A stretch of DNA of 38,360 nucleotides from a virus. Position 1 is the stretch's first letter, and each line of letters opens with the position of its first letter. The notes beneath the pieces are model-generated. The model did no database searches and had not been told where the DNA came from. It worked only from the letters and a program-made list of their open reading frames with translations. Below, one piece after another: positions 8,652 through 38,360 of the stretch. Location of the stretch: positions 1 through 38,360 of IMG/VR virus record IMGVR_UViG_3300027791_000057; one strand, written 5' to 3'. The position numbers were made by a program, and so were the translations under genes.

Positions 8652-8655
8652 ATTT

Positions 8656-16868: not shown

Positions 16869-16880
16869 TAATTTATCCTA

Positions 16881-19333: not shown

Positions 19334-19348
19334 TATATTTCCTCCATC

Positions 19349-22393: not shown

Positions 22394-22414
22394 GTGTCAT
22401 TTCCCTAAATTAAA

Positions 22415-22443: not shown

Positions 22444-22454
22444 TCGTTTTTTAC

Positions 22455-22919: not shown

Positions 22920-22931
22920 TGCTCAATCTCC

Positions 22932-24814: not shown

Positions 24815-24816
24815 GT

Positions 24817-25029
24817 TTACTCCTTGGTTTCCTTCATTAGATTAATCAGCCTAATGATTACTGATCTTTCGCCTTCGTGAAAGGCGGTCTTATAAGGGTC
24901 GGGATCAAAACTGCTACGGCTATAATAAGCGTTAAGCAAATCTTGCAAGACCCTCGCCCCTTCGTCACTGTCACAGAACGTTGCTCTGTAATCGTTTCTT
25001 AATTGGTCAATGTCTTGGTTATACGGCAT
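24817..25029 (-). CDS. Small Bbp19-like structural protein
   Basis: This 70-residue protein has the pattern ATFCDSDEGARVLQDLLNAYYSRSSF and a later AFHEGERSVIIRLINLMK. This pattern is seen in small proteins encoded between portal and scaffold in many short-tailed phages (Bbp19-like). The function is not established; a head-assembly role is likely from context. I chose the ATG at 25029; a GTG 9 bases upstream (25038) is in frame and possible. It overlaps the portal end by 11 bases. Confidence 0.75.
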   Translation of the reverse strand: MPYNQDIDQLRNDYRATFCDSDEGARVLQDLLNAYYSRSSFDPDPYKTAFHEGERSVIIRLINLMKETKE

Positions 25030-26689
25030 TAGCGTCACCCATTCCCATTTCTTCAGCCGACTGTTGCATCATGTCTTGAACCGCTGGATCGGCCATATTC
25101 TGTGCCGCTTGAGATTCCTGATTTGTTGCCGCCGCTTGTTGTTGAGCCATTTCAGCTTCTTGTTGTGCTTGCTGTTGTGCCGCCCTAGCCTGTCTGCCTT
25201 CTTCAATTTCGTCTGCATCGCGCAAGATGGATTTTGGAACACCCAATAGTTCTGCTCTAAGACGAACTGCCGAATCATGGTTAATATTATCCATTACTGA
25301 GGGGTCAAATTGAGCAACCTGTCCTAGCATTTGGTACAAACGCTCTATTGCCACGCCTTCTTCCATACGCTGTGACCTAGCTAAAGGCCCAACATACTCA
25401 ATATCCATTTGCGTACCCTCTACGGTATCAGGTTCTTTTAACAAAGCTTCAGCCCTGTACATAATTCCAAATACACGTTCAATCAAAGGGTTCAAAAATT
25501 CAGATTGGAAACGCCCTAGTGTTGGCCCTAATAGTCTTTGCATCAATTCATAGCGAACTTGCACTTCTGTTGCAGTCATTTGAGGGCCATCAGCCAATTG
25601 TAACTGGTCAGAATAGAAAGCTTGCCTAATAGCTGTTCTTAATTGGCCTTCTTTCATGTCTGTAATTTGCCAGTTAGTCCCAATAGGCAAAGGTCTAATG
25701 CTGTCTTGCTGTCTAACTACAGTAATACCCGCTGGTGTGGTACGAATCCTACCTACTACTCCATCATCAGTAACTAAAAGAGGTGGGTCAATTGCTTTTG
25801 CCCAAGCTTTTAAACCAATTTCTACTGCTTTGTTGATTGTTCTAATGTCTGGCAGGGCATTATATGACGGGCTTCTTCCAAAAATTTCTCCAGTTGCTTT
25901 ACTCCATCGTGGGACAAGGTACGGAAATTCGTTGTATCCACCCCTGCGAACAACCATTTTGTCTTCTTCGCAGACATGACACGAATGTATGGGAAGTTTT
26001 GTTTTGGATCGTTTTCCTGTGGCACGTTCATAGTCCTTTGTTGGCTCTACTGCGTGAATAAATACAAACTGTTTTTCTGGCTTGTCACGGGCGGCTTCTA
26101 GTATCTTTGGCCCAACCATGTTTTCACCAAATTCTTGAACTGCTTGCCTAGCTGATAATTTATACTTTCGATAAAGAGTATCTACTTTGCCTTTATTGTC
26201 TTCTTGAATGTAATACTCAGAAATATGAAGCGTGTTAAAGTGCAACCCGCCATCCATAAATCCTTTTGCGTCTTCTTCTACAAAAATAGCGCCTGTACCA
26301 ATAGACGTTAAGTCTAAATACATTTCATGCACTTCTGTATTAAAGTTGCTATCGTTAAAGGCGTCATACATACGCCTACCGCAATCTTCTAACCAAACTT
26401 GAGTGTCTTGGCTTTCGTTTAAATCACGATTACGCATTTTCATGCTAAACCAAGGTAAGGAAGGTGACGTTAAAGTGCCTTGCAAAGAAGCCGCTAAAAG
26501 TGTGTTGGCAGTAATCGCTGTACTGTCATACAAGACCTCAGTTCTTTTATCGCCTTTTGAGCGAGTAAAGGTAATGTCAGCTTTTCTAGGCATGACATAA
26601 TCAAGTATTTCTTGCCAATTGTCTTCCCAAGTACCACGGTCTGCCGCCATAGCCGCAACACGTTTTTTTACATAATCAAATTCAGCCAT
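25019..26689 (-). CDS. Portal (head-tail connector) protein
   Basis: This 556-residue protein is close to the 536 of T7 gp8. The amino terminus (RGTWEDNWQEILDYVMPRK) is followed by VLYDSTAITANTLLAASLQG, LTSPSLPWFSM, WLEDCGRRMYDAFNDSNF and YLDLTSIGTGAIFVEED. All are signatures of the short-tailed phage head-tail connector family. The carboxy terminus is a Gln/Ala-rich helix (RQARAAQQQAQQEAEMAQQQ), typical of the tail-proximal barrel. Its start overlaps the preceding small gene stop (TAATG). Confidence 0.93.
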   Translation of the reverse strand: MAEFDYVKKRVAAMAADRGTWEDNWQEILDYVMPRKADITFTRSKGDKRTEVLYDSTAITANTLLAASLQGTLTSPSLPWFSMKMRNRDLNESQDTQVWLEDCGRRMYDAFNDSNFNTEVHEMYLDLTSIGTGAIFVEEDAKGFMDGGLHFNTLHISEYYIQEDNKGKVDTLYRKYKLSARQAVQEFGENMVGPKILEAARDKPEKQFVFIHAVEPTKDYERATGKRSKTKLPIHSCHVCEEDKMVVRRGGYNEFPYLVPRWSKATGEIFGRSPSYNALPDIRTINKAVEIGLKAWAKAIDPPLLVTDDGVVGRIRTTPAGITVVRQQDSIRPLPIGTNWQITDMKEGQLRTAIRQAFYSDQLQLADGPQMTATEVQVRYELMQRLLGPTLGRFQSEFLNPLIERVFGIMYRAEALLKEPDTVEGTQMDIEYVGPLARSQRMEEGVAIERLYQMLGQVAQFDPSVMDNINHDSAVRLRAELLGVPKSILRDADEIEEGRQARAAQQQAQQEAEMAQQQAAATNQESQAAQNMADPAVQDMMQQSAEEMGMGDANAV

Positions 26690-26901
26690 TACTCTAACGT
26701 GCCTCCTAACAATGAAGTGCCTGTATTAGCTTCTTCTTCTACGCCCATACCGCTTGTTAAAATAGTTCCAGCCATGCCTTTTGACTTTCCATCAAGTAGG
26801 CGTTTTTTCTCTTTTTCCAATGCCGCTTCAGCTTTATCTGTTTTTTCTGTAATAGCCGTGTCTACTGGCGGTGGCATTTGAGGTGATGATTTCATACCCA
26901 T
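26689..26901 (-). CDS. Small protein with carboxy-terminal GTILxSxxG...EANT...LLGG motif
   Basis: This 70-residue protein has a Pro-rich start (KSSPQMPPPVDTAITEK), a Lys/Glu helix (KAEAALEKEKKRLLDGK) and the tail GTILTSGMG-VEEEANTGTSLLGG. The tail is shared with the 99-residue protein at 27326-27625. Similar tails occur in small proteins next to the portal gene of marine short-tailed phages; no function is known to me. It is coupled to the portal gene by TAATG, suggesting a virion or assembly role. Confidence 0.6.
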   Translation of the reverse strand: MGMKSSPQMPPPVDTAITEKTDKAEAALEKEKKRLLDGKSKGMAGTILTSGMGVEEEANTGTSLLGGTLE

Positions 26902-27323
26902 CTACATTCTCCCTTTAACATACCATAAAGTGCGGCATCCACATGACCATTGGCAGTTTTCATCATGCTTCTAATTACACCCTCTTTGACGAATCCAGTT
27001 TTGGCTAATAATTTTTCGTTTCGTTCATACCCATTTACACAAGTTGCTGTCATTCTTTCGCATTTGGCTTGCAAAAAACAATACTCAAACATTAATTTGA
27101 TATATCGCCTTTGGCAAACACGCGGATCTTCTATAGCAAGATGGACAAAAATATTATGCCCGTCATAGTCAGAAAACAAAAGAACAGCTAAAATTTTCTC
27201 TTCTTCCTTAAAGGTAATGTAAGAAAAGTCATCGTGGTACGGGCCTAAATAAGCTCTTGGTCGCAACCACGAATAGGCTTCTTTCTTACCTTTATCTGTA
27301 CCTTGTGAAAAAACTTCGATCAT
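26892..27323 (-). CDS. GNAT-type N-acetyltransferase
   Basis: This 143-residue protein has a GNAT-like layout: an early beta region (YITFKEEEKILAVLLFSD), then HLAIEDPRVCQRRYIKLMFEYCF (acetyl-CoA-binding strand-helix region) and TATCVNGYERNEKLLAKTGFVKEGVIR (the N-x(3)-LL-x(3)-GF-x2-EG motif). Such genes occur in the head-gene cluster of several short-tailed phages. The substrate is unknown; host RNA polymerase, virion protein or a small molecule are all possible. It sits between the two genes that share the GTIL tail. Confidence 0.75.
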   Translation of the reverse strand: MIEVFSQGTDKGKKEAYSWLRPRAYLGPYHDDFSYITFKEEEKILAVLLFSDYDGHNIFVHLAIEDPRVCQRRYIKLMFEYCFLQAKCERMTATCVNGYERNEKLLAKTGFVKEGVIRSMMKTANGHVDAALYGMLKGECRWV

Positions 27324-27325
27324 TT

Positions 27326-27625
27326 TTAGTAAGATCCACCAGATGTCTCTTTTAAAGGCTTTTTCTTTTTGACTGACTCAGTAGGTTTTGCTGTGCCGCC
27401 ACCTAATACTGTTTTATTAGTATTAGCTTCTGTTTCGTCACCTTGGGCAGACCCTAGAATAGTGCCGCCTCCATAACTGCTTTTTGTTTTTCCAGCGCCC
27501 ATGCCAGCCGATTTTGTACTTTTTGCTGTTTTAGCAACGGTGGTTTGAGGCGTTACCGCTACGGGGGCGGGGGCGGCTTTTGGCCCACTAAATACCCTTG
27601 AAACTGCTCTTACTATTGCACCCAT
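27326..27625 (-). CDS. Small basic protein with GTILxSxxG...EANT...LGG motif
   Basis: This 99-residue protein has an Ala/Pro/Thr-rich amino half (VRAVSRVFSGPKAAPAPVAV), then GTILGSAQG-DETEANTNKTVLGGG and a Lys-rich end (KKKKPLKETSGGSY). The motif matches the tail of the 70-residue protein two genes on, so the pair share an ancestor or a common binding partner. It lies directly after the large terminase gene, with AAGGAG upstream. I do not recognise a function. Confidence 0.6.
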   Translation of the reverse strand: MGAIVRAVSRVFSGPKAAPAPVAVTPQTTVAKTAKSTKSAGMGAGKTKSSYGGGTILGSAQGDETEANTNKTVLGGGTAKPTESVKKKKPLKETSGGSY

Positions 27626-27636
27626 TATGTGTCTCC

Positions 27637-29052
27637 TTAAAACATGTTAAATTCACTATCAGAAGTTACCTGTGTAGGTTGGTAGTTTTTAACCCTAGCT
27701 TTACGAAGTGATAACACACAATAACGCATTGCGGAAATTACATCGTCATTTATAGGGACAATTTTACCGTCCTTTCTGTGGTACATTCTCATTTCTTCTA
27801 GCAGTTTACCATTATTCTTAAAAATTTTCAATCTATTCGTTTGAAAACGAGTCAACATGTCCTGAATACCTGATTCTACGCTGTTTCCTCCGCTTCCTTC
27901 TTTAGCTCCTTGTGGCGGGGGATTGCTAAAATGATCGTGCGTCATATTAACGCCTTCTATTCTGTATTGCTCAGTTAAGCTTTTTCCAGATCCTTTGTCA
28001 GCTTGCCTTCCATCCATAGGCCAAATGCAGGAAATCCACTGTCCTCTAGCTTTTATTGCAGACGCATGTATTGGCACACTTTCTTGCGACATAGCGTAAG
28101 CGTCATAAATGTATGCGGTATCTGTATCTCTGTCCCATGCCGCCCAAACTGCCGCTGTCGGGTGATTCCACCCAAAATCAATGCCACATAGTCTAGGCCA
28201 ATGGTTAGGAATTTCTATAGGGTCGCAAACAATGTCTTCTTCAGCAATAGGAAAAACAAGACCAGAGCCAAGTTGAGGGATACCTCTTTCTCTCATTTTT
28301 CTTTCGTGGGGTGGCAATGCTGAAAGTATTTGTTCTCGAACCTCTGCCGTCATATGAGGCGCGTCATCCCAACCTGCCTGTATAAGCGCCTGTCCTTTGC
28401 GTAAGTTGTTTACAAACTGCGCTACTGTTTCGGTCATACCGCTTTCTGGGGTAAACGTCATATAAACTATTCCGCCTTTGTCGGCAGTACGAGTTAATGA
28501 CTGTGTATAAATAGGACTAGGTGGTTCTTCATCCAGCCATACAACGTCAACGCTTTCTCCCATCCACTTTTCACGGCCCATTTCGTAAGCTTTAAAAGCA
28601 AGGCGTGACCATCCGCCCGTTACATGTTTAATAACAAGACTGTTCATCGCGTTAGGTACGCCAGCCTTACGCACAGTTTCGCCAATCAAACTTAAAGGTA
28701 TAGACCCTGTTCCCCTAGCTGTTGGATCGTCAGGTTGCCCTACTAATTCGCGTTGGCAAATATCACGGGTTGTTTCGTTTGACGCTCCACCTGCCCACGC
28801 CCGTATAGGGCGAACGAATTTTTTACCTTCCCACCAATCAGGGTACAGACCCGTTAGATGAAAAGCCATTTCCATTGCGCCACAGAAAGACTTGCCAATA
28901 CGGTTACCCGCCATAAGCAATCTTTGTTGTCCCGCTGTGTTGTGAAACTTAACTTGGTAGGCATAAGGCTTATAATCAGCCATGCGGTTAGTTAACTTGC
29001 GCCGTTCTAATTCTTTAGCAATCTCTACTGCCCTTGCTAAATTATCCGTCAT
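27637..29052 (-). CDS. terL: Large terminase subunit
   Basis: This 471-residue packaging motor has a Walker A-like MAGNRIGKS at 47-55 and a Walker B VVWLDEE at 170-176. The RuvC-like nuclease domain begins with LCGIDFGWNHP (D292). The coupling motif is likely in VYMTFTPESG (196-205). It pumps DNA through the portal and cuts concatemers. The gene overlaps the resolvase-like gene by 11 bases, so the two are translated together. It is shorter than T7 gp19 (586) but has both domains. Confidence 0.93.
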   Translation of the reverse strand: MTDNLARAVEIAKELERRKLTNRMADYKPYAYQVKFHNTAGQQRLLMAGNRIGKSFCGAMEMAFHLTGLYPDWWEGKKFVRPIRAWAGGASNETTRDICQRELVGQPDDPTARGTGSIPLSLIGETVRKAGVPNAMNSLVIKHVTGGWSRLAFKAYEMGREKWMGESVDVVWLDEEPPSPIYTQSLTRTADKGGIVYMTFTPESGMTETVAQFVNNLRKGQALIQAGWDDAPHMTAEVREQILSALPPHERKMRERGIPQLGSGLVFPIAEEDIVCDPIEIPNHWPRLCGIDFGWNHPTAAVWAAWDRDTDTAYIYDAYAMSQESVPIHASAIKARGQWISCIWPMDGRQADKGSGKSLTEQYRIEGVNMTHDHFSNPPPQGAKEGSGGNSVESGIQDMLTRFQTNRLKIFKNNGKLLEEMRMYHRKDGKIVPINDDVISAMRYCVLSLRKARVKNYQPTQVTSDSEFNMF

Positions 29053-29341
29053 TCAGGACAGATTCTAAATCGCTAGAGTGTACCATTACCCAAAAACCAG
29101 CCCTGTTCTTTTCGCATAAAGCTATTACAGGTATCTTGCCTTCAGTCTTAGCTATCTTAGCCGTATCGTCCCATAAGGTTACGGCAGTATGTTTTACGCG
29201 CAACTTACACTCTACAAATAGCTTGTCGTGTATAACGTCAGCCCTTGTGATCTTGCCGTTACCCCCAGATAGAGGTGTTCGCTCCCCCCCAAAAAATTTA
29301 GCTACATCACGTTCCCGTTGCTTCCAAGCTTTGTCACCCAT
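29042..29341 (-). CDS. Resolvase-like PD-(D/E)XK nuclease
   Basis: This 99-residue protein has RERDVAKFFGGERTPLSGGNG at 9-29, RADVIHDKLFVECKLR at 33-48 (D35, E44 and K46 form the D-(D/E)-x-K centre) and WDDTAKIAKTEGKIPVIALCEKNR. This matches small Holliday-junction-resolvase-like nucleases of phages. It is the first gene of the terminase and head unit. A role in clearing branched DNA before packaging is an inference from that position. A promoter with two operators and GGAG lies upstream. Confidence 0.75.
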   Translation of the reverse strand: MGDKAWKQRERDVAKFFGGERTPLSGGNGKITRADVIHDKLFVECKLRVKHTAVTLWDDTAKIAKTEGKIPVIALCEKNRAGFWVMVHSSDLESVLNDG

Positions 29342-29369: not shown

Positions 29370-29416
29370 ATACTACACCAACATTAACTATAGTTCAATA
29401 GATTAACCACGGTTAA
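29370..29416 (-). promoter_or_regulatory. Sigma70-type promoter with two operator palindromes (resolvase/terminase unit)
   Basis: On the minus strand TTGAAC (29398-29393) and TAGTAT (29375-29370) are 17 bases apart. Operator A (TTAACT-AT-AGTTCA, 29384-29397) covers the -35 region and operator B (TTAACC-AC-GGTTAA, 29403-29416) lies just upstream. Their centres are 19 bases apart. The palindromes match those at the other early promoters, suggesting control by the repressor encoded at 36474-36692. Confidence 0.65.
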
Positions 29417-29820
29417 CACTTAGATATTCCCCCCGCTGTGTACAGGAAAGCATTATATAGTGGCAGGTGCGGCGGCTTGGGGGGTGGGGGGGTCTAAAAG
29501 TGTGCAGTTTCAAGGGCTTACATCTTTTCTCGCCTGTTCCCACGCGCCCACCTGTTCCGCCTTGTGCCGCTGGGGGTCGAGCCTGTTTCATTGTGTCACC
29601 TTATACATGCGCAATGACATGAGGGCTGTTGATTAATAGCAAGACCGTGGCGCTTGGGTTAAGAGGTGCGAGGCTGGGCGTGTGTGTGTGCTGACCCTTT
29701 ATCTTTGAGGTAATGAGTACAGTTATAATGTCAGGGATGCAGGGGATGCAGGGGATGCGAGGGGCTAGAGTCTAAGTGTTACGCTATACGGTAGAAGGTG
29801 ACTGACATGAGTGGATCTGT
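29417..29820. other. GC-rich non-coding block between terS and the resolvase gene
   Basis: No convincing gene is seen in about 400 bases. The block is clearly richer in G and C than its neighbours. It contains a G-tract pair (GGGGGG-T-GGGGGGG around 29479-29492), spaced CCTGTTCC copies (29533, 29551; a related CCTGTTTC near 29582), a TG run (29680-29690) and tandem AGGGGATGC units. A TATAAT at 29724-29729 (plus strand) has no good -35. A packaging (cos/pac) site or replication element next to the terminase genes is the most likely content; an uncharacterised RNA is also possible. Confidence 0.5.
29733..29758. repeat. Three tandem AGGGGATGC-type units
   Basis: The units are AGGGATGC, AGGGGATGC and AGGGGATGC in direct succession, followed by GAGGGG. 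They lie about 60 bases beyond the terS stop. Short tandem motifs beside terminase genes are candidate terminase-binding or pausing sites. Confidence 0.55.
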
Positions 29821-30279
29821 TTAATTGACTAGACCCGCGCCCTTTGGATCTGGCAGGTTAACAGTTGGCTTGTGTTCTATTGCAGGTGCATCTTGTTTGA
29901 TGACAGTCATCAGGTGTTCAAGCTCTACCTGCAACTCTGCATCTGAACGCCTGTTGGTTACATCCTCAACCTTGTGCGTTGTTTGGTAGCCCGTGCGATC
30001 CAGTATTGAATTGATTGCGCCAAGCTGAACGCTGGCAGGTGTTTTATCATCCACAAGCAAGCGCCGTAGTTTCTCAATTGCCATTGGTACAGTTGCGCCC
30101 ATTAACTTGCGCGTTGCCGTGTCAATCTCTGCGCTTAAAGATTGTTTGAGATTGTAGCCCTGCTGTTCGGCAGTGGTTGGAGAATAGCCAGCGGTAATAG
30201 CTGACTGAGTTGCGTTACCTGTCTGACTAAAGTTCGTGACAAAAGCAGATTGTTTATCTGTAAGGGTTTTCTGATACAT
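29821..30279 (-). CDS. terS: Small terminase subunit
   Basis: This 152-residue protein has an amino-terminal DNA-binding region (LTDKQSAFVTNFSQTGNATQ, then SAITAGYSPTTAEQQGYNLKQ) typical of the Terminase_2 group. A helical oligomerisation part follows, with ASVQLGAINSILDRTGYQ near 80-100, and then an acidic helix and a Pro-rich tail. It recognises the packaging site and loads TerL. It is separated from terL by the GC-rich block and the resolvase gene, which is unusual. The start has AGGTT upstream. Confidence 0.9.
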   Translation of the reverse strand: MYQKTLTDKQSAFVTNFSQTGNATQSAITAGYSPTTAEQQGYNLKQSLSAEIDTATRKLMGATVPMAIEKLRRLLVDDKTPASVQLGAINSILDRTGYQTTHKVEDVTNRRSDAELQVELEHLMTVIKQDAPAIEHKPTVNLPDPKGAGLVN

Positions 30280-30357
30280 TTGCTCATTTTAACCTACATG
30301 TTTCAAACCGTCAAAGTGTTTCTATATATAAGGTAAAAGGTATTTTAAAAGTATTTC

Positions 30358-30398
30358 TTGCGTAGATCCTGCAAGCATGTATAATTAACGCAAGTTAA
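30358..30398 (+). promoter_or_regulatory. Promoter and operator of the small-gene operon
   Basis: TTGCGT (30358-30363) and a consensus TATAAT (30380-30385) are 16 bases apart. Operator C (TTAACG-CA-AGTTAA, 30385-30398) begins at the last base of the -10 and covers the expected start point, a classic repression position. A Shine-Dalgarno AAGGAG follows at 30417-30422. Confidence 0.7.
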
Positions 30399-30430
30399 CA
30401 ATAATGTTGACTGTATAAGGAGTACGCAAA

Positions 30431-30739
30431 ATGAAAGCACATTATCAGATAGCCAAGTACGCTATTAAGACAATGGGATATTCTATCTCTGTTGACGATG
30501 GCGATCCAGACGGTGAGTTCGTCTTGGAACGCTCAACAAACATCAAGGCAGTTGTGGAAGCTTGCGAGGGCGTAGATGAAAGTCATATGTTTTTCTTCGA
30601 CAAGGATGGAGCAAAACAGTCATGGGCGTTTATCGTGCTGGGCAATGATGGCGGGGATGAAGTTAGTGACTACGGAGTTATTGACTGGATTGACGCTTTT
30701 TTTAACACACCAATTATGTCGGAGTCTTATCATGGATAA
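30431..30739 (+). CDS. Uncharacterised phage protein, first gene of the small-gene operon
   Basis: This 102-residue acidic protein has the look of a widespread uncharacterised phage family. A start around GYSISVDDG is followed by an LERSTNIKAVVEAC segment, then ESHMFFFDKDGAKQSWAFIVLGNDGGDEVSDYG near 52-84. The motif (R-S-x2-K, later W-x3-V-x-GN-x3-DE-x-SDY) is recognisable from memory, but no function is known to me. It is cytoplasmic by composition. It is the operator-proximal gene, so probably the most strongly expressed early product of this operon. Confidence 0.65.
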   Translation: MKAHYQIAKYAIKTMGYSISVDDGDPDGEFVLERSTNIKAVVEACEGVDESHMFFFDKDGAKQSWAFIVLGNDGGDEVSDYGVIDWIDAFFNTPIMSESYHG

Positions 30740-30911
30740 AGCACTAGAATTGTTGTCTGCAATCACTGGCACAGTTTTCATTCTTGTCGCGCTTTACTAC
30801 TTAGCGCCTCAAGGAATGTATTTATATCTTGGAATGTTAATCGTGGGCGTTCAACTCGTTGGGATGGCCTTTAGATCCGCTTTTAAATCTCGCAACCGTT
30901 ATGACCTTTAA
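30732..30911 (+). CDS. Small two-helix membrane protein
   Basis: This 59-residue protein starts at the ATG inside the end of the previous gene (GGAG at 30721). It has two hydrophobic segments (about 5-22 and 28-46) and a basic carboxy terminus (RSAFKSRNRYDL), which predicts both termini in the cytoplasm. A longer frame from 30576 would overlap the previous gene almost fully and is not used. Function unknown. Confidence 0.6.
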   Translation: MDKALELLSAITGTVFILVALYYLAPQGMYLYLGMLIVGVQLVGMAFRSAFKSRNRYDL

Positions 30912-30918
30912 GGGGGCA

Positions 30919-31128
30919 ATGAAAATGAAAACTTGGGAAATGGAAACACCGCAAGGCGATCACGTTAGATTGTCTTGGAATGAGTCGGCAACGTTTAACC
31001 TTCAAACTGGAATAGGGGGGCAATGGGTCGATTACCATTGCTTTACTGTTTACGGAATTGATAGCGCGTTAGAAGCCTTGTCTGTTGGTTATGACGCAAT
31101 GATAGAACTAGAGGGAGAAACAACATGA
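30919..31128 (+). CDS. Uncharacterised 69-residue protein
   Basis: The start is the ATG at 30919 with AAGGGGG just upstream; a longer frame from 30859 lacks a ribosome site. The small acidic protein (MKMKTWEMETPQGDHVRLSW, later WVDYHCFTVYGIDSALEALS) appears to be an alpha/beta fold with a beta-rich first half. It ends in an ATGA overlap with the next gene. No family recognised. Confidence 0.55.
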   Translation: MKMKTWEMETPQGDHVRLSWNESATFNLQTGIGGQWVDYHCFTVYGIDSALEALSVGYDAMIELEGETT

Positions 31129-31379
31129 AACTTAAAAACCTAGCATCTAACATGGTGCAAACTTCTTTTGATAGCGGGTTAGAAATCCTGTTTTCATATG
31201 ATACACCCGTTGCCGCCAAGTTTCGCGGTGCGGCTTTTAAAACATCTAAAAAGTGGTCTAGCACAACTACCCGCCACGTTAACAAGTGGCTAGCAGGGAA
31301 GGACGCAAGCTTACTGCCTCAGTCTGCTTTTGACCGTGACCTATCCGTTAGACTTCCAGCGGTCTTCTTGAAACCATGA
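31125..31379 (+). CDS. Uncharacterised phage protein with FSYxTPVAA and TTRHxNKWL motifs
   Basis: This 84-residue basic protein has the core ILFSYDTPVAAKFRG (near 21-35) and the later KKWSSTTTRHVNKWLAG (near 42-58). Small proteins with this pair of motifs are common in phages and some plasmids; no biochemical role is known to me. Basic charge and the compact motif suggest nucleic-acid or protein binding, but that is a guess. ATGA overlaps join it to the genes on both sides. Confidence 0.65.
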   Translation: MKLKNLASNMVQTSFDSGLEILFSYDTPVAAKFRGAAFKTSKKWSSTTTRHVNKWLAGKDASLLPQSAFDRDLSVRLPAVFLKP

Positions 31380-31534
31380 TAGCAATTTTAGCTTGGATAA
31401 CTGTAATGACCGCCCTTTTCGTTGGGGCGGTTATTTACGTTGGTGTTAGCCCGTGGGCTGGGATGGCGGTCATGGTTTTATCTTTTATCATCTTTTATGT
31501 TTGGATGGTTTTAACTTATCGGGGTTCAGAATGA
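31376..31534 (+). CDS. Small two-helix membrane protein (52 residues)
   Basis: This short gene is fixed by ATGA overlaps at both ends. It encodes two hydrophobic segments, about 3-23 (ILAWITVMTALFVGAVIYVG) and 28-47 (AGMAVMVLSFIIFYVWMVL), with a short YRGSE tail. It is the second such protein in this operon, alongside the one at 30732. Function unknown; superinfection exclusion or another envelope role is possible but untested. Confidence 0.6.
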   Translation: MIAILAWITVMTALFVGAVIYVGVSPWAGMAVMVLSFIIFYVWMVLTYRGSE

Positions 31535-31821
31535 AAAAGACAGAAAATATTAATGGAACAAGTTTGCGGGGATCTGTTTCGGCAACGTTCCAGCAATTGA
31601 TTGACGCTTTTGGCGTCCCTTCTTGCTGGGGTTGTGACCAGACTACAGACGTTGAATGGCACGTTGTTTTTGATGATCTGGTTGTTGCCACTATCTACAA
31701 TTGGAAAAACGGAAAGTCTTATCTTGGAAGCGAAGGTTTACCAATGTGTGAGATTAAAACTTGGAACGTGGGCGGATTCACTGACCACGCAATAATAAAC
31801 GTAAGGGAGCAACTACAATGA
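31531..31821 (+). CDS. Uncharacterised phage protein with VATIYNWKxGKxYxG motif
   Basis: This 96-residue protein shows NINGTSLRGSVSATFQQLID at 6-25, GVPSCWGCDQTTDVEWHVVFDD near 28-49, and VATIYNWKNGKSYLGSEGLP near 52-71, ending TWNVGGF. This order is that of a frequent but functionally undefined phage family. The first ATG at 31531 overlaps the previous stop; a longer frame from 31453 is not needed. Operon context is the only clue to its role. Confidence 0.65.
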   Translation: MKKTENINGTSLRGSVSATFQQLIDAFGVPSCWGCDQTTDVEWHVVFDDLVVATIYNWKNGKSYLGSEGLPMCEIKTWNVGGFTDHAIINVREQLQ

Positions 31822-32087
31822 AACGCAAAACAGTAAGGAAATTATGGCAAGGCAAATTTGTTTCAATTCGTGATTATGAAATTTCCAGCGCCATTAAATT
31901 AGGTGGGCTGGTGATAGAATATGCGGGCAAGTACATGGAATTAAGCGTTGAGGATCTTGCATCCATCACGCCTAAAGGTCAGGCGCACCAATCTCAATTT
32001 GGTGGCACTTACCAGCTAGCAGATATTACTTGGCAACCGCTTGTCACAGATCCCCGCCAGCCGAAGTTAAAAGGCATAGACCAATGA
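31818..32087 (+). CDS. Uncharacterised 89-residue basic protein
   Basis: The protein begins with a strongly basic stretch (KRKTVRKLWQGKFVSIRDYE). KLGGLVIEYAGKYMELSVEDL then suggests a small beta barrel, with a polar tail after it. It overlaps both neighbours as ATGA. No family recognised; RNA or DNA binding is plausible from charge. Confidence 0.55.
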   Translation: MKRKTVRKLWQGKFVSIRDYEISSAIKLGGLVIEYAGKYMELSVEDLASITPKGQAHQSQFGGTYQLADITWQPLVTDPRQPKLKGIDQ

Positions 32088-32302
32088 TGCGCTGGTCTGA
32101 GCGGGAAAGCGTCACAATCACATTTGACGTTGAGGACGTTTATAAGGTCGCACCTGATTTGCAAGACTTTCAGGCGCGTGAAGTCTTAGCCTACGCACTA
32201 AACACCTACAACAAGCGTAGGGGTCTAAATTACAATGTATTATTTAACACGGTAACGGCACTTTATCCGTCTGCCACAATGGAGAAAAAACATGAAGATT
32301 AA
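32084..32302 (+). CDS. Uncharacterised 72-residue protein
   Basis: The start is the ATG at 32084, overlapping the previous stop; the frame can be extended upstream to 32030 without a ribosome site. The protein alternates acidic strand-like (SVTITFDVEDVYKVAPDLQDF) and helical (REVLAYALNTYNKR) parts. Function unknown. Confidence 0.55.
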   Translation: MMRWSERESVTITFDVEDVYKVAPDLQDFQAREVLAYALNTYNKRRGLNYNVLFNTVTALYPSATMEKKHED

Positions 32303-32648
32303 TAAACTTGACCACGAAGCCACAGACAGCACCCCAAAAGGGTCACTTTTAATATCTGATGGCACTACAATTTTCGCAGTAACTAAGCGAACATCTAACA
32401 GCGGTAATTTTCGGCACATTGCTTTTTATACAATGATGATTGAAGACAGCAATTTTGAGGAAGGCGATTGCCGCATTACCTCTACCAATATGTCAAAGTG
32501 GGTATGCCATATGCTAGGCTTGCCATACAAAGACGAAACTATTGCAGTTGGCGTAAACGGTAATGACGAATTGATTGCGGCTAAAGGTATAGTCGAGCAA
32601 ATCAAAACGCACTTGGAACTAAAGCGGCTAAACATCCAGCTACTTTAG
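32292..32648 (+). CDS. Uncharacterised 118-residue protein, last gene of the small-gene operon
   Basis: The protein has a beta-rich first half (GSLLISDGTTIFAVTKRT, FRHIAFYTMMIED) and a later TSTNMSKWVCHMLGLPYKDETI followed by a helical end. GGAG lies 9 bases before the ATG, inside the previous gene. An intrinsic terminator begins 24 bases after its stop. No family recognised. Confidence 0.6.
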   Translation: MKINKLDHEATDSTPKGSLLISDGTTIFAVTKRTSNSGNFRHIAFYTMMIEDSNFEEGDCRITSTNMSKWVCHMLGLPYKDETIAVGVNGNDELIAAKGIVEQIKTHLELKRLNIQLL

Positions 32649-32671
32649 AACTTACAACACACAAGAAATTG

Positions 32672-32696
32672 GGGGGCTTTTAGCCTCCTTTTTTTT
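32672..32696 (+). terminator. Intrinsic terminator of the small-gene operon
   Basis: GGGGGC (32672-32677), loop TTTTA, GCCTCC (32683-32688; one G-T pair) and then eight T. The converging Ref-like gene stops inside the stem at 32680-32682. Confidence 0.9.
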
Positions 32697-32982
32697 GGCC
32701 TAACAGATCCAGCGTAAACTCTAACAAAGACCTTTGGCTTCCCCACTTGTTCGTAAAGGTAGCAGGGCTGGAATGATAAGCCGCTTCAGAACTACGGTGG
32801 TGCATAGGGCAAAGCGGTATCACTTCATAATTGCTAGACCTTAGACCCATCCCCGTCTGTTCTTTAATATGATGCAATTCCGCTGGGGAATCCTCATAGC
32901 CCATCTTATAGCAAACAACGCACCCCAATCTGGCTACTGCGTCCATGTGCCTACTTTCAGCGGCGGTTCTTCTTTTAGGCAT
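32680..32982 (-). CDS. Ref-like HNH nuclease
   Basis: This 100-residue protein has CVVC (C21, C24), AELHHI (H37, H38) and PLCPMHHRSS (C58, H61, H62), an HNH/beta-beta-alpha-metal layout. It resembles the RecA-dependent nuclease Ref of phage P1 and short relatives found in phage replication modules. A role in recombination on RecA-coated DNA is inferred from the family. It is last in the leftward replication unit and overlaps the gene before it by 8 bases. Confidence 0.75.
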   Translation of the reverse strand: MPKRRTAAESRHMDAVARLGCVVCYKMGYEDSPAELHHIKEQTGMGLRSSNYEVIPLCPMHHRSSEAAYHSSPATFTNKWGSQRSLLEFTLDLLGQKKGG

Positions 32983-33322
32983 AACTTTTCCGTTCTACAG
33001 TCTGGTTTATCATTTTGGTTTTCCAAGTTTCAAAGTTCAATTCAACAACTTTCTTTTCCCATTGCCATTTTGCTTCATTACCTACAGCAATTGAAAGAGC
33101 CGTTATGTGATCTATGTATCTCTGATCTGCCCTAGCCTCACGTTCTTGAGCGGCGGCGGTTTCCATTTTGCCACCTAACAACATTACTTCTTTCATAATG
33201 GTTGCTAACAATATCTTGCGCCCGTGTTCGAGCAAGCACATTTGCGCTTTTGCCTTGGCGTATTCTTCACCAATTGTTCTGACTTGGTGCATTTTCATTT
33301 CTAAAGCATCATTATCAGTCAT
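32975..33322 (-). CDS. Helical protein of unknown function in the replication unit
   Basis: This 115-residue, almost fully helical charged protein has the features RTIGEEYAKAKAQMCLLEHG (15-34), AAAQEREARADQRYIDHI (55-72), then KWQWEKKV and a final FETWKTKMINQ. Proteins with this E-YAKAKA, then AQEREA, then E-x-W-x-T layout are common beside phage recombination and replication genes, but I know no proven activity. It overlaps both the helicase and the Ref-like gene by 8 bases, so production is coupled. Confidence 0.65.
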   Translation of the reverse strand: MTDNDALEMKMHQVRTIGEEYAKAKAQMCLLEHGRKILLATIMKEVMLLGGKMETAAAQEREARADQRYIDHITALSIAVGNEAKWQWEKKVVELNFETWKTKMINQTVERKSYA

Positions 33323-34832
33323 TCATTCGCCCCCCTTGTTTACCTTTATTGAATTTATTGCCCTTGGCCTTCTTAATAGCCAAATGTTTTATGAAATTGG
33401 TAACTTCAACGCCCACAGGCATAGGGTACACCTGTTTATTGTGCGGGAAGTGTCCAAATTTAGCCTTATAAGTATGATCTGCCCACCCTTTTGCAAACTT
33501 TTTAGATATTGCGTAGCTAAGTAACTGTGCATAAAAGTTTGCTTTGTCTTGTGAAGGTGGTTCTCTGTCCTTGCGCTTAACCTCAACCAATCTGCCTTGC
33601 TTTATGTTTAAGGCTTCCTCGCCCTTAGTGGGTATGTTGCCGCAATTAGGACACTCAGGGAAACCTCGCATTGGTTTATAAACAGTTTGGCAGTTGCAAC
33701 AGGTACATGGTTGCTTTTCTATAGGTTCAGGCTCTTTCTTGGGAACAGCTAACTCTTCTGAACTGGTCAATTCCCATTCAGGAGCTTCATCTGGAAAGCC
33801 ATGCTCGTAAACGCAACCACTATGGTCAATTATAAGCGTATCAACCTTACCAGTAAAAGGACGCAACGCCCTACCTACCATCTGCAAATACATTCCGTAA
33901 CTTTTAGTTGGCCTTGCAATGACAACGCATGAAACTTTTGGTTCGTCCCATCCTTCTGTCAAGACCATGCAATTAGACAGAACTTTTATCTCACCTTCAT
34001 GCAATTTTCGCAGAACTTCAACGCGAGACACTTCATCCATTTCACCATCAATATGACCTGCGGCTATTCCGTTATCATTAAATATACCTGCAATAAATTT
34101 ACTGTGAGCAATGCTAGTAGCAAAAACTACAGTAGGGCGGTTTTCGCCATGCTCTACCCAATGGGTAACCAAATCACCTACAAGTTTAGGCTGGTTCATT
34201 CGGGTATTTAAACCACGCTTTTCATAGTCACCCGCTTGCATCTTTAAGCCCTTTAGATCTGGCATACTTGGGGCAATTATTCGGGCAGGTGTTAAGAAAC
34301 CTTTTTCAGTCAATTCTGATATAGATCCACAATTAACTAAAGAATCGTAATAGTTTCCTAGCCCCTTACCATCTGCGCGGCATGGTGTAGCGGTCAAACC
34401 TATAACATAGGCGTCAGGGTATTCTGCTATTAAATCTTGAAAGGTCTTAGAAGCAGAACGATGGGCTTCATCCAGAAAGATAACTTTAGCCTTGGGCTTC
34501 CAAAAGTGTTCGTTATCTTTTCGAGCATGATAAGATTGAACAGACGCCACTTGAACAGACGCCAAATTATTAGGCGTAAAGTCTGCCATAACAACGCCAT
34601 GATTAATCCCAAAATCAGATAGCTTAGACGAACATTGCTTAACAAGTTCTCTTCTGTGAGCCACAAACAACGAAGGGTTAGACTTATCGGCAGACGCCTT
34701 AATCATAGCAGACGCAATAACTGTCTTACCTGCGCCAGTTGGCGCGACTAACAAAACTTTCTTTTTGCCACGCATAAACTCATGGCGTACTGCCTCAATT
34801 GCTAGTTCTTGGTATTCTCTTAGCTGTATCAT
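33315..34832 (-). CDS. DEAD/DEAH superfamily 2 helicase with zinc motif
   Basis: This 505-residue helicase shows Walker A APTGAGKT (30-37), FVAHRREL (Ia), VIFLDEAH (117-124), GLTATP (145-150), VVFATS (235-240), LTEGWDEP (V) and QMVGRALRP (317-325, VI). A cysteine cluster follows (C376, C378, C379, C381, then C394, C397), probably binding zinc. It resembles phage UvsW/Ssl2-like helicases that remodel forks or D-loops. In this genome it is probably the replication or recombination helicase, since no DnaB-type helicase is visible. It starts at the overlap with the primase stop (TAATG). Confidence 0.92.
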   Translation of the reverse strand: MIQLREYQELAIEAVRHEFMRGKKKVLLVAPTGAGKTVIASAMIKASADKSNPSLFVAHRRELVKQCSSKLSDFGINHGVVMADFTPNNLASVQVASVQSYHARKDNEHFWKPKAKVIFLDEAHRSASKTFQDLIAEYPDAYVIGLTATPCRADGKGLGNYYDSLVNCGSISELTEKGFLTPARIIAPSMPDLKGLKMQAGDYEKRGLNTRMNQPKLVGDLVTHWVEHGENRPTVVFATSIAHSKFIAGIFNDNGIAAGHIDGEMDEVSRVEVLRKLHEGEIKVLSNCMVLTEGWDEPKVSCVVIARPTKSYGMYLQMVGRALRPFTGKVDTLIIDHSGCVYEHGFPDEAPEWELTSSEELAVPKKEPEPIEKQPCTCCNCQTVYKPMRGFPECPNCGNIPTKGEEALNIKQGRLVEVKRKDREPPSQDKANFYAQLLSYAISKKFAKGWADHTYKAKFGHFPHNKQVYPMPVGVEVTNFIKHLAIKKAKGNKFNKGKQGGRMND

Positions 34833-35656
34833 TAGTATCTACTCCAAATGTCTCGAACCTGAAACTGAACTTCAGCAACGTTTTCGGGCGGGTTACATGA
34901 GGCGGCGAAAGCCATAGCCTCGCCCATTGCGTAGTCAATTGATTCACCTCGTTTGCGAATAGCCACTAATATTTTAATCAATCTTTCATGGCGTTCACCC
35001 TTACCCATACCGTAACGCAAAGTACCAGTGTACTTGCCCTGATAGGTGGATGGCTTGTAATCTTTGTAGTCTACAACAATTCTGGTAGGTCTTTCTAACT
35101 TCAGACCGTCCCTAATTTCATCCATCTTATAAGGTGACCTAAGTCCCTTTTGGCTGTGTACCTTAATTGGATAAGGCGCTTTCTTATGGTGAAAGAAGCC
35201 AGCAACTCGCATGACACGCGGTAAATCTTTAACCACAGGATCAGAATTGTACTTTTTAGCTAACGCTTCCTGATATAAATTAAAGGTAGGCAAAGGCATA
35301 TCGTCAACCATCCAATAGCAATGGTACTTGCCTTCGCTTGTGTTAACTACAATGTGCGGCTTTAGTTCAAACGTATCAGGCAAAGGCGTACCGTCCAAAT
35401 CAATAAAGACAGCGCGAACCTTTTTAATATGCTTGGTTGTCCTTCCAAGACCATTAGTCTCATTCACTGTAAAGAATACACCTGCGCCTTTGCGGTTTAA
35501 TGCCGAAAGTTCCTCAAAGTGTTCTTCTAACGTGCCATGAAACTGTCTAGTTAATGACCTGTTAATACCTTTATCGCAAAAAGTCTGAAAACTATGACGG
35601 TGACCAAATGCCGCAATGAATTGATGGTAATGGGTAAGGTGGTTATACTTTATCAT
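34832..35656 (-). CDS. Primase-like protein (RepB/PrimPol-type)
   Basis: This 274-residue protein starts at the ATG preceded by AGGTGGGG; an upstream in-frame ATG at 35680 would add eight residues and overlap the previous gene more. Motifs: VFFTVNETNG (60-69), VFIDLDG with D86 and D88 as candidate metal ligands, NTSEGKYHCYWMV (105-117) with the histidine of primases of this type, and LPRVMRVAGFFHHK (145-158). The carboxy-terminal helical part (RHERLIKILVAIRKRGESID) resembles a PriCT-like region. It probably makes primers for host polymerase, as no phage DNA polymerase is present. Confidence 0.8.
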   Translation of the reverse strand: MIKYNHLTHYHQFIAAFGHRHSFQTFCDKGINRSLTRQFHGTLEEHFEELSALNRKGAGVFFTVNETNGLGRTTKHIKKVRAVFIDLDGTPLPDTFELKPHIVVNTSEGKYHCYWMVDDMPLPTFNLYQEALAKKYNSDPVVKDLPRVMRVAGFFHHKKAPYPIKVHSQKGLRSPYKMDEIRDGLKLERPTRIVVDYKDYKPSTYQGKYTGTLRYGMGKGERHERLIKILVAIRKRGESIDYAMGEAMAFAASCNPPENVAEVQFQVRDIWSRY

Positions 35657-36029
35657 TAGTTCCCCACCTAACTTCCGCACCCTTTTTGCCAGCCACAGAA
35701 CGCCTTGCTCTGTGAACTGCCTGTTCTTTGCGTTCCTCTTCTGCCTGTATGCAAAGCAAAAATGTTGTTGCGTCTTTTGTTTTCACCTCTTGGAACAAAT
35801 GGCTAATCTTAGGCCAAATGTTATTGATCTTGTTTTCAGTAACGTTGCACATTTTTGACATTATTTCAAAATCATACGGCACTTTGAAACCACGCCAGCA
35901 ATGACAGTAAAGTAAAAGATACGCACCCTGTTCTTCTAACGTCATACGCATACGGGATGGGTCACTAATCCAATCGCTAGCGTAGAACTGAAACGCTGGT
36001 GACTGTTCGTTTGTTGTGCTGTTTCTCAT
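35643..36029 (-). CDS. DUF1376 (YdaU-like) replication protein
   Basis: This 128-residue protein has the family signature FQFYASDWISDPSRMRMTLE at 13-32, then GAYLLLYCHCW and a winged-helix-like SKMCNVTENKINNIW. The basic tail ends in GAEVRW. DUF1376 proteins are found as first genes of phage and prophage replication modules and are thought to act in initiation. Here it follows an operator-controlled promoter and lies next to repeat clusters that could be its binding sites. AAGGA lies upstream of the ATG. The carboxy terminus overlaps the primase start. Confidence 0.85.
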   Translation of the reverse strand: MRNSTTNEQSPAFQFYASDWISDPSRMRMTLEEQGAYLLLYCHCWRGFKVPYDFEIMSKMCNVTENKINNIWPKISHLFQEVKTKDATTFLLCIQAEEERKEQAVHRARRSVAGKKGAEVRWGTNDKV

Positions 36030-36050
36030 AATTGTGTCCTTATCTCACGA

Positions 36051-36092
36051 TTAACTAAACTTAATGTTACTGTACTTTGGTTAACCTGTCAA
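36051..36092 (-). promoter_or_regulatory. Leftward replication promoter with two operators
   Basis: On the minus strand a consensus TTGACA (36092-36087) and TAACAT (36069-36064) are 17 bases apart. Operator E (TGTACT-TT-GGTTAA, 36071-36084) fills the spacer and operator D (TTAACT-AA-ACTTAA, 36051-36064) covers the start region. Their centres are 20 bases apart, about two helical turns. Repressor binding would block both open-complex formation and escape. Confidence 0.7.
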
Positions 36093-36135
36093 CTTAGTCT
36101 GTTGCTCCCCCCTCTTAATCTTGCTTGAAGATGCA

Positions 36136-36165
36136 GGTGAAGCTGAAGGTGAAGGTGAAGTAGAA
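36136..36165. repeat. Five tandem hexamers (GGTGAA-like)
   Basis: GGTGAA, GCTGAA, GGTGAA, GGTGAA and GTAGAA follow in direct succession just upstream of the leftward replication promoter. This could be a protein-binding array of the origin or a residue of slippage. Confidence 0.5.
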
Positions 36166-36220
36166 GGGTATGTTTGTGCCATTGGCAAAACTGTAGCTAA
36201 AATTAATAAGCGCATGGCTA

Positions 36221-36253
36221 TGCTATGGCATTGCTATACTAATGCTATCAATG
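36221..36253. repeat. Three 11-bp units with TGCTAT cores (iteron-like)
   Basis: TGCTATGGCAT, TGCTATACTAA and TGCTATCAATG run end to end, preceded by a further GCTAT at 36217. The 11-bp spacing puts the cores on one DNA face, as in replication-initiator iterons. It lies beside the replication genes. Confidence 0.45.
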
Positions 36254-36258
36254 GGGAT

Positions 36259-36352
36259 TGGTGGTGTTGGCAAGACTTGAACTCGCATACCTGTTACACC
36301 AAACCTCATTCGAAAGGCTGTAACAGTGTTCTAACCGTTGAACTACAACACC
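36259..36352 (-). tRNA. tRNA gene with abnormal, expanded anticodon arm and encoded CCA
   Basis: On the minus strand a 7-bp acceptor GGTGTTG/CAACACC is followed by TA and a D arm GTTC-AACGGTTA-GAAC. The T arm is GCGAG-TTCAAGT-CTTGC with a normal T loop. A discriminator A and genomic CCA (36261-36259) end the 94-nt gene. The anticodon stem CTGTT/AACAG is intact and even extends to 7 bp (CTGTTAC/GTAACAG). However, 26 nt instead of 7 lie between the 5-bp stem strands, and no standard U33-anticodon register is found. The amino-acid identity cannot be assigned. It may be a tRNA mimic, a decayed tRNA or a gene with an inserted segment. Confidence 0.65.
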
Positions 36353-36393
36353 AAAAAAATAAGGGGATGCTAGGATAAGGAAACCAGCACCCC
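36353..36393 (-). terminator. Terminator after the repressor gene, abutting the tRNA
   Basis: On the minus strand GGGGTGCT (36393-36386) pairs with AGCATCCCC (36371-36363, one bulged base), followed by TTATTTTTTT ending at 36353. The tRNA begins at the next base. Repressor transcripts should mostly end here, so the tRNA would depend on read-through. Confidence 0.65.
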
Positions 36394-36473
36394 CTCAGTC
36401 GGGGAGAAAGACAAGTACACACAATTTTTAGCCTAGATCTCAACCATTGCCCTTATTTTATGGTTGTAGTGAC

Positions 36474-36692
36474 CTACCCCGCGTGTAAGGGGGCAATCTG
36501 TAAATCAGGTCTAAGGTATTCTACCTCGTAATCACCTAGCTTGGCAATCTGAAAAGCACGATATGGCGGTATTACATGCCATTTGCTTACGGCGGGGTGG
36601 CTTATGCCCAGCATACGGCTTAGATTCTTTCCCCCATATCGGGAAACAATTTCTACTCTACGCTCAATAGCCAATTCATAATTATCTAACAT
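36474..36692 (-). CDS. Cro/YdaS-like helix-turn-helix regulator
   Basis: This 72-residue protein has a helix-turn-helix at about 22-41 (KNLSRMLGI-SHPAVSKWHV), followed by IPPYRAFQIAKL and the ending VEYLRPDL. That A-V-S-K-W, I-P-x-x-R-A and L-R-P-D pattern is typical of Cro/YdaS-type phage regulators. It is the only clear transcription factor in the genome. Its own promoter carries two copies of the 14-bp operator and the facing promoter a third, so autoregulation and control of the other units is the natural reading. It lacks a CI-like peptidase or oligomerisation domain, hence is more Cro-like than CI-like. Whether the phage is temperate cannot be told. Confidence 0.85.
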   Translation of the reverse strand: MLDNYELAIERRVEIVSRYGGKNLSRMLGISHPAVSKWHVIPPYRAFQIAKLGDYEVEYLRPDLQIAPLHAG

Positions 36693-36706
36693 GCTTTTGC
36701 CCCTTG

Positions 36707-36748
36707 TTAACTAAACTTTATCTTACCCTCAGACTTAACTATTGTCAA
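36707..36748 (-). promoter_or_regulatory. Repressor promoter with two operators
   Basis: On the minus strand TTGACA (36748-36743) and TAAGAT (36725-36720) are 17 bases apart. Operator F (TTAACT-AT-TGTCAA, 36735-36748) covers the -35 and operator H (TTAACT-AA-ACTTTA, 36707-36720) lies over the start point. This allows negative autoregulation. Confidence 0.7.
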
Positions 36749-36754
36749 CTTTGC

Positions 36755-36782
36755 TTGACATGGGGGTTAACTATGGTAAACT
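36755..36782 (+). promoter_or_regulatory. Rightward early promoter with operator
   Basis: TTGACA (36755-36760) and TAAACT (36777-36782) are 16 bases apart. Operator G (TTAACT-AT-GGTAAA, 36767-36780) covers spacer and -10. The start point should be near 36789, directly ahead of the leader structure. It diverges from the repressor promoter, in a three-operator arrangement like that of lambda. Confidence 0.7.
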
Positions 36783-36931: not shown

Positions 36932-37537
36932 ATGAGTATTATGGCAACAGGAATGGGCGGCGAAGGTCGTTTTCCAAACGTAGAAGTAGGCGTACATAAG
37001 GCACGTTGCGTCAAGGTCATTGATCTTGGTACGCAACATAACGAATACCAAGGGGATGTTTCTTGGAAAAGGCAGGTTCTTTTAATATGGGAAGTGCCAA
37101 CAGAAACTAATGGCAATGGTGAGCCGCTGACTATCAGCAAGTTCTACACCTTGTCACTTCACGAAAAATCTAATCTAGGCAATGACCTTGGTTCTTGGCG
37201 TGGACGCCCGTTTACAGACAAAGAACGACAGGGCTTTGATATAAGCGCCTTGTGTGGGCAACCTTGCATGTTGAACGTAATGGAAGGGAAGAATGGCAAG
37301 CCTCGCGTAGCGGCGGTTTTACCAGCGCCAAAAGATAGCCCTGTAGCCCCACAGTTTAATGACAGCGTTGTGTTTTCTATTACTGATTGGCAAGAAAACA
37401 AGCGGGAAGCTTTTAATTTATTGTCTGAGGGTATCAGGAATATTATTCTGAAATCTAAAGAGCTTGAAGAGGACGTAAATTCTTCTGACCAAGCGCCAGC
37501 TTCAGACGATATAGATCTAGGCGATGTGCCATTTTAA
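36932..37537 (+). CDS. DUF669-type ssDNA-binding-like protein with SSB-like tail
   Basis: This 201-residue protein starts at the ATG preceded by GGAG. It has the DUF669 pattern: FPNVEVGVHKARCVKVIDLGTQ near 14-35, KRQVLLIWEVPTE, LTISKFYTLSLHEKSNLGNDL and RGRPFTDKE. The family is linked to phage recombination and is thought to adopt an OB-like ssDNA-binding fold. The acidic, disordered end (SSDQAPASDDIDLGDVPF) closely resembles the carboxy-terminal tail of bacterial SSB that recruits host repair proteins. It lies directly before the exonuclease, forming a two-gene recombination pair. Confidence 0.75.
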   Translation: MSIMATGMGGEGRFPNVEVGVHKARCVKVIDLGTQHNEYQGDVSWKRQVLLIWEVPTETNGNGEPLTISKFYTLSLHEKSNLGNDLGSWRGRPFTDKERQGFDISALCGQPCMLNVMEGKNGKPRVAAVLPAPKDSPVAPQFNDSVVFSITDWQENKREAFNLLSEGIRNIILKSKELEEDVNSSDQAPASDDIDLGDVPF

Positions 37538-37550
37538 TTAGGGGGATGAT

Positions 37551-38360
37551 ATGAAAATTACTAACAACTTAAATTTACCACAGGCAATTGTTAACGCAGT
37601 AACAAATGACCCATACGATTCATCAGGCAGTGACATATCTGTTACTCGCCTTATTGCGCCACCACGAATAAGGGTCTTGGAAGCAAGAAACTGGGATCTT
37701 TTAACAGATGACGTAGGCGATAGGATCTTTAGTTTACTTGGTCAGTCTGTTCACCATGTTATTGAACGGGCTAAAGGTAAGGACGATCTAGCAGAACAGC
37801 GTTTGTTTGTTAAGAATGATGACACTCAAGGCTGGACGCTATCAGGTCAGTTTGATTATCTAACCGCTAAAGATGGTGAGCTAATAGACTTTAAAACTAC
37901 TTCCGCTTGGTCTGCACTAGACGCTTTGTCAAACGGTAAAGATGAATGGGAGCAACAGCTAAACTTATTAGATTATTTAGTAAGGCATAGCCCAGAAGTT
38001 ACGCACGAAGTTCATTCATTGCAGATCTTAGCTATACTAAGAGATTGGTCAAAGCTTAGAGTTATGCAATCAGACAGCTACCCGCGCAAGCAGGTGGTTA
38101 TGATACCAATTCGTAGATGGACGCCAGAAGAACAATCGCAGTATGTCAGGGAGCGGATTAAAGCCCACCAAGACGCTGAAAAAACTACTGAACTGCCAGT
38201 TTGCTCACCTAAAGAAAGATGGAACAAGCCAGACAGCTATGCAGTTATGAAGGATGGGCGCAAAACAGCCGCCCGTGTATTACCTTCTAAAGAAGCGGCG
38301 GAAGAATGGTTGTCTTCAAACAACATGGTCAATGGCGTTAAGTGTCAAATAGTTTTGCGT
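37551..38360 (+). CDS. RecB/Cas4-like PD-(D/E)XK exonuclease with Fe-S cysteines, 5' part (continues at 1-245)
   Basis: Joined across the contig ends the protein has 295 residues. Motifs of the RecB/Cas4/AddB-type nuclease fold appear in order: GQSVHH near 64-69, GQFD with D102, LIDFK with D113 and K115 as the metal-binding core, and QLNLLDY (Q136, Y142) as the QxxxY motif. Cysteines C218, C277, C281 and C287 follow (C-xn-C-x3-C-x5-C), resembling the 4Fe-4S cluster ligands of Cas4/AddB nucleases. The role is probably DNA end processing in phage recombination or replication; polarity cannot be read from sequence. The ATG at 37551 has a good Shine-Dalgarno (GGGGGATGAT) and follows the DUF669 gene by 13 bases. 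There is no sign of a Cas1/Cas2 context, so a CRISPR role is not suggested. Confidence 0.85.
   Translation, partial: MKITNNLNLPQAIVNAVTNDPYDSSGSDISVTRLIAPPRIRVLEARNWDLLTDDVGDRIFSLLGQSVHHVIERAKGKDDLAEQRLFVKNDDTQGWTLSGQFDYLTAKDGELIDFKTTSAWSALDALSNGKDEWEQQLNLLDYLVRHSPEVTHEVHSLQILAILRDWSKLRVMQSDSYPRKQVVMIPIRRWTPEEQSQYVRERIKAHQDAEKTTELPVCSPKERWNKPDSYAVMKDGRKTAARVLPSKEAAEEWLSSNNMVNGVKCQIVLR
38194..38360. repeat. Terminal direct repeat, right copy
   Basis: This is the second copy of the 167-base end repeat and carries the C variant at 38234. Joining the two ends at this repeat restores one uninterrupted 295-codon exonuclease frame, which is strong internal evidence that the sequence is a closed circle in concept. 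Confidence 0.9.

Follow-up and report, generated by a model that had tools for sequence, protein, structure and literature searches.

A conserved operator palindrome and a P22-Cro-like gene point to a phage-encoded regulon in an ocean phage with T7-type virion genes

The Cro protein of phage P22 and the OR and OL regions of phage lambda are the closest described counterparts of a set of palindromic sites and a small helix-turn-helix (HTH) protein gene found in IMG/VR virus record IMGVR_UViG_3300027791_000057, the whole of which (38,360 nucleotides; hereafter the window) was analysed here. The record is circular, its ends overlapping by 167 bases with one mismatch. The P22 operator, TTAAG-N4-CTTAA, has the same layout as the window operator, TTRAC-N4-GTYAA, with C and G swapped. 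The 72-residue HTH protein encoded in the window belongs to the sequence family of P22 Cro (1RZS, PF14549), is likewise a small stand-alone HTH protein and is likewise accompanied by palindromic operators at divergent promoters; unlike P22, however, no c2/CI partner was found among the window open reading frames (ORFs) scanned, and operators are also present at the replication, small-ORF and structural operons. As at lambda OR and OL, a Cro-type gene goes with a region of divergent promoters that holds up to three operators, but the searches described below found neither CI nor an integrase nor relatives in sequenced bacterial genomes, and the sites extend over five promoter classes, the late operon included. 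Two further systems offer partial parallels: p4 of phi29 represses the early promoters A2b and A2c and activates the late promoter A3 for the host polymerase (PMC10899789), while the T7-like temperate phage LUZ100 has a T7-type virion together with a regulator (PMC10134795). The 72-residue protein may resemble p4 functionally in being one small protein for both early and late promoters, and the window phage resembles LUZ100 in combining a T7-type virion with a regulator.

One operator, four promoter regions and a single Cro-like HTH gene together form a conserved regulon that is well supported by the site statistics and by comparison with related phages. The original prediction described eight sites fitting TTAACY-NN-RGTTAA, all of which are present at their positions (Table 1), although TTRAC-N4-GTYAA is the better consensus. 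The number of matches alone is ordinary: TTAACYNNRGTTAA at up to two mismatches occurs 14 times in the whole window against 11.65 expected, which is not above chance, and the operator claim thus rests on placement. The 2.3 kb of noncoding DNA (6% of the window) contains all five matches at up to one mismatch and 8 of the 14 at up to two, where a Markov model of noncoding DNA predicts 0.08 and 0.9 respectively (binomial P for this placement 7e-7 and 3e-7). Coding DNA holds 0 and 6 matches at these thresholds against 0.7 and 9.5 expected, so that the equal frequency in coding DNA that would speak against the original prediction is not seen. The window was then scanned with a symmetric matrix made independently of it, from 39 distinct perfect TTRAC-N4-GTYAA sites in 10 related genomes. 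Six of the eight predicted operators proved solid, taking ranks 1 to 5 and 7, while the remaining two, 36071 and 36707, taken singly are indistinguishable from background. Among the sites used for the matrix, position 3 of the half-site is A in 79%; inspection of aligned regions showed G at this position where the site also serves as a TTGACA −35 box.

Searching IMG/VR with the HTH protein yielded at least 88 loci, of which 80 were kept. Operators recur at the same places in these loci, ahead of the DUF1376 gene and of the HTH gene or the operon that contains it, with further operators at two promoters 6–8 kb away beside the terminase genes; the spacing between sites varies between subclades while the sites themselves persist. 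Ten complete or near-complete HTH-bearing relatives carry four to five perfect TTRAC-N4-GTYAA sites each (43 in total, 37 of them intergenic on a mechanical ORF map in genomes with about 7% noncoding DNA), whereas the reversed-pattern control gives 6 in the same ten genomes. The nearest isolate, Pelagibacter phage EXVC032P Baldr (OQ414636), with a portal 73% and an HTH protein 72% identical to those of the window, is the one isolate whose HTH protein is more than 60% identical; the protein is annotated there as ‘hypothetical protein’. In Baldr, operators are likewise found at the small-ORF cluster, in the divergent region and ahead of the structural genes; the phage infects SAR11 strain HTCC1062 and differs from the window in its GC content (about 31% against 42%) and in an extra gene before the HTH gene. 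These comparisons bear directly on whether the palindromes are chance matches in AT-rich promoter DNA, with −35 boxes supplying half of each palindrome. The chance-level count in the whole window and the background scores of the two weak sites would agree with such an origin, but it is contradicted by the ranks in the independent matrix, by the same positions in many relatives at 66–84% protein identity and by the excess over the reversed pattern. Chance or a promoter-consensus artefact is thereby refuted for the six strong sites and seems extremely improbable overall.

A different origin would be that the phage exploits binding sites of a host regulator, for instance of CtrA or FNR type. The CtrA motif includes TTAAC, and TTGAC-N4-GTCAA is similar to the sites of FNR-type proteins, which gives the palindrome some likeness to both. 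The four regions, however, show TTAA-N6-TTAA only and never the N7 spacing of CtrA, and the prevailing A at half-site position 3 is unlike the TTGA of FNR-type sites. Ten HTVC010P-type isolates that lack the HTH gene contain 0 or 1 perfect site each (4 in total), and eight of them are listed with host HTCC1062, the same as the HTH-bearing Baldr; a host factor therefore does not explain the difference. Given these same-host sister phages without sites, together with the N6 spacing, a host regulator is improbable. A scan of IMG/VR for two operators, made blind to the protein, found at least 80 loci, and 26 of the 80 listed carry the HTH gene. About two dozen of those listed are prophage-like contigs in which a similar pair of palindromes occurs but a close relative of the HTH protein is lacking; L112, L118, L145, L108, L157 and similar contigs have paired TTAACYATNGTTAA sites, and in L118 and L145, the two contigs inspected whose repressor gene is intact, a gene for a CI-type protein lies 0.5–1.5 kb away. 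The palindrome is thus not unique to the HTH family, and these contigs apparently represent independent use of the same palindrome.

The 72-residue protein matches the Pfam P22_Cro profile (PF14549) at 1.4e-8 with 34.8 bits, above the curated cut-off of 30.2, and its sole convincing relative in the PDB is P22 Cro itself (1RZS, 5e-6 over the helix-turn-helix). The recognition helix ISHPAVSKW is unchanged across 14 aligned family members that are 66–81% identical to the window protein, and even among the most distant members compared the helix and the sites hardly vary, a V to I change being confined to L286 and L290. Helix and operator thus show next to no co-variation inside the family. That this protein binds the shared operators, as originally proposed, is a prediction, while the sites, their placement, their conservation and their co-occurrence with the gene are observed. 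As predicted, only one regulator gene lies at the divergent promoters. Two of the three operators assigned to this region are firm, whereas the third is doubtful in the window phage, although several AT-rich relatives have three clear sites there. In G002, G005, G007, G008 and Baldr, the HTH gene is separated from the operators by a gene of about 70 codons (MATILxELIxELxAKxKRIxKEIINxDRSSVIP) in the same operon, which is absent from the window, G001 and G006; its conserved product is possibly a partner of the HTH regulator.

The operators lie at or beside promoters that were called as sigma70-type, and these calls are good at 36.75 kb in both directions, at 36.07 kb and at 30.38 kb. The claim that every site accompanies a recognizable promoter of this type holds for these positions but is weaker at 29.4 kb, where either TTGAAC-17-TAGTAT or TTAACC-18-TATAGT can be read. 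The HTH, small-ORF and DUF1376 promoters all have good −35 boxes, and in the small-ORF and DUF1376 promoters the operator covers the end of the −10 box or the start point; overall, of the five classes of promoter, four have operators that overlap a strong core. The imperfect TTAACTAAACTTAA at the replication-operon operator is unchanged in most relatives, even at about 70% HTH identity, as if a weaker operator had been selected. A tRNA gene (36262–36352, minus strand; Rfam 49.4 bits) that was missed by ARAGORN encodes its CCA and is unusually long in the anticodon/variable region.

Table 1. Operators, promoters and genes of the proposed regulon (coordinates are those of the window; rank, position in the window scan with the relatives-only matrix).
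Feature	Coordinates	Strand	Remarks
Late operon: resolvase-like gene, terminase large subunit, portal, capsid, tail, internal virion genes	2538..29341	-	
Candidate late promoter	29370..29398	-	TTGAAC-17-TAGTAT, 4 bp downstream of operator 29403; assignment uncertain
Second structural-operon operator	29384..29397	.	Over candidate −35; rank 5; second site also in G001, L058, L052
Operator upstream of structural operon	29403..29416	.	Perfect palindrome; rank 3; conserved in relatives
Small-ORF promoter	30358..30385	+	TTGCGT-16-TATAAT; rightward cluster 30431-32648
Small-ORF operator	30385..30398	.	Touches −10 and covers start; rank 2; same geometry in relatives
Replication operon: DUF1376/primosomal protein, RepB-type primase, superfamily 2 helicase	33315..36029	-	
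Operator at replication operon promoter start	36051..36064	.	Rank 4; TTAACTAAACTTAA identical in many relatives
Replication operon promoter	36064..36092	-	TTGACA-17-TAACAT
Weak operator in spacer/−35 of replication operon promoter	36071..36084	.	Rank 18, not above background alone
72-residue Cro-like HTH regulator gene	36474..36692	-	P22_Cro profile, 1RZS, invariant recognition helix
Weak third operator near HTH promoter start point	36707..36720	.	Rank 16; 36697-36710 scores equally; G001 site at same place
HTH gene promoter	36720..36748	-	TTGACA-17-TAAGAT
Strongest operator	36735..36748	.	Contains TTGACA −35 of HTH promoter; rank 1; geometry in 9/9 genomes
Rightward promoter	36755..36782	+	TTGACA-16-TAAACT; serves phrog_862 and exonuclease genes
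Operator over −10 of rightward promoter	36767..36780	.	Rank 7; counterpart in relatives
First rightward-operon gene (phrog_862, function unknown)	36932..37537	+	
Exonuclease gene (phrog_2139)	37551..38360	+	Crosses circle junction

The fourth operator region, at 29.4 kb, serves the terminase and structural operon, so that the description of the palindrome as a feature of every early promoter is inexact. Its geometry also departs from that of the others, where the operator covers the promoter core: most relatives have the late operator immediately before the −35 box of a weak promoter. In 13 of 16 rows aligned on the first operator (counted by hand) it ends exactly 4 bp before the TTG of a −35-like box. 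After a spacer of 17 bp comes a poor −10 box such as TATTAG, and the operator centre is thus near −46, which would be a better place for an activator than for a simple blocker. The second site over the candidate late −35 box in the window, G001, L058 and L052 suits repression. With activation fitting most relatives and repression the window subclade, the late operon may be either activated or repressed. Between the terminase small subunit gene and this operon a conserved tract precedes the operator (29420–29500, minus strand sense), consisting of CCCCCC-A-CCCCCC, then TATAATG or TACAATGG, then the hairpin CCGC-ACA-GCGG. This arrangement is found at the same place in L009, L012, L030, L032, L045, L059, L085 and L086, and it could be a packaging (cos/pac) site.

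The late operon encodes recognizably T7-type portal and tail-tube proteins (PF12236, 1.7e-139; phrog_394 and phrog_376), and the HTVC010P-type pelagiphages have portals of the same T7-like family at 41–45% identity but neither an HTH homologue nor an operator set that could be found. A search for RNA polymerase (PF00940) gave no match in 11 genomes, although the control was likewise silent; no RNA polymerase is annotated in the records of Baldr, HTVC010P and HTVC035P, and the window itself is likely to be without one. Transcription by the host polymerase is accordingly to be expected in this lineage, and while the virion genes are of T7-like type as originally read, the contrast with T7 is weaker than was originally drawn. 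Two structural-operon ORFs, of 2348 and 667 residues, belong to no clear family; the former (9822–16868, minus strand) has no PHROG match and is likely an internal virion or tail protein.

A lysogeny switch of the kind implied by the term ‘lambda-like’ is not supported. Neither a CI-type partner nor a second repressor was found among the window ORFs scanned, no PF00589 tyrosine integrase was detected in 11 genomes (control positive in 14/14), and no relatives of the HTH protein or portal were found in 84,980 prokaryotic species genomes. Judged by its sequence, the window phage is a member of an ocean phage family related to SAR11 phages, with no classical lambda-type lysogeny switch visible. 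Could the protein instead be a global repressor that silences all operons in a latent or carrier state, either in an unintegrated (plasmid-like or pseudolysogenic) phage or for superinfection immunity? Operators at all operons, the late one included, and the second site over the candidate late −35 box in the window subclade are compatible with this, as are the tRNA gene and an early region built as in temperate phages, with a P22-Cro-type gene, DUF1376 and a RepB-type primase. Such a role is nevertheless unlikely in view of the missing integrase, CI partner and prokaryotic relatives and of the late operator, which in most relatives is upstream of the candidate −35 box rather than over it.

With no lysogeny genes found, a switch that times the lytic cycle is the likeliest role. 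The 72-residue protein would be the phage's own transcription regulator, probably acting on sigma70-type promoters of the host through autorepression and early shut-off. It is envisaged to bind TTRAC-N4-GTYAA as a dimer and to repress its own gene and the rightward recombination, replication and small-ORF operons through the −35 box, the −10 box or the start point, and it would also bind upstream of the structural operon, with an effect in either direction. Early genes would then start at full rate, the regulator would accumulate and turn off the early operons and its own gene, and the late operon would be left as it is or be activated. Several points weigh against this timing switch. Promoters were called with an Escherichia coli matrix; neither the protein nor the operators vary much within the family; and the co-occurrence of HTH gene and operators (P = 4.8e-5) was calculated ignoring relatedness, HTH-bearing and HTH-less phages being different clades. 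If the late operon were also repressed, moreover, a timing switch would make less sense than a latency switch. A more specific proposal, which we advance tentatively, is that a Cro-like protein without CI serves as a dual regulator of a lytic phage, repressing all early operons and itself and activating the structural operon from the operator 4 bp upstream of the weak −35 box, so that part of a lysogeny switch would have been turned into a pure early-to-late switch.

Phages related to the HTVC010P group belong to the abundant ones of the sea, and the literature that we found does not establish how the order of their gene expression is set when no polymerase of their own is obvious. Within a limited literature search, no Cro-only regulon as extensive as this one is known to us. 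A single regulator can now be named together with the full, conserved set of target sites, and because the cultured relative Baldr has both and grows on HTCC1062, the proposal is open to experiment. If the Cro-only reading is true, a part known from lysogeny switches would here serve a lytic programme.

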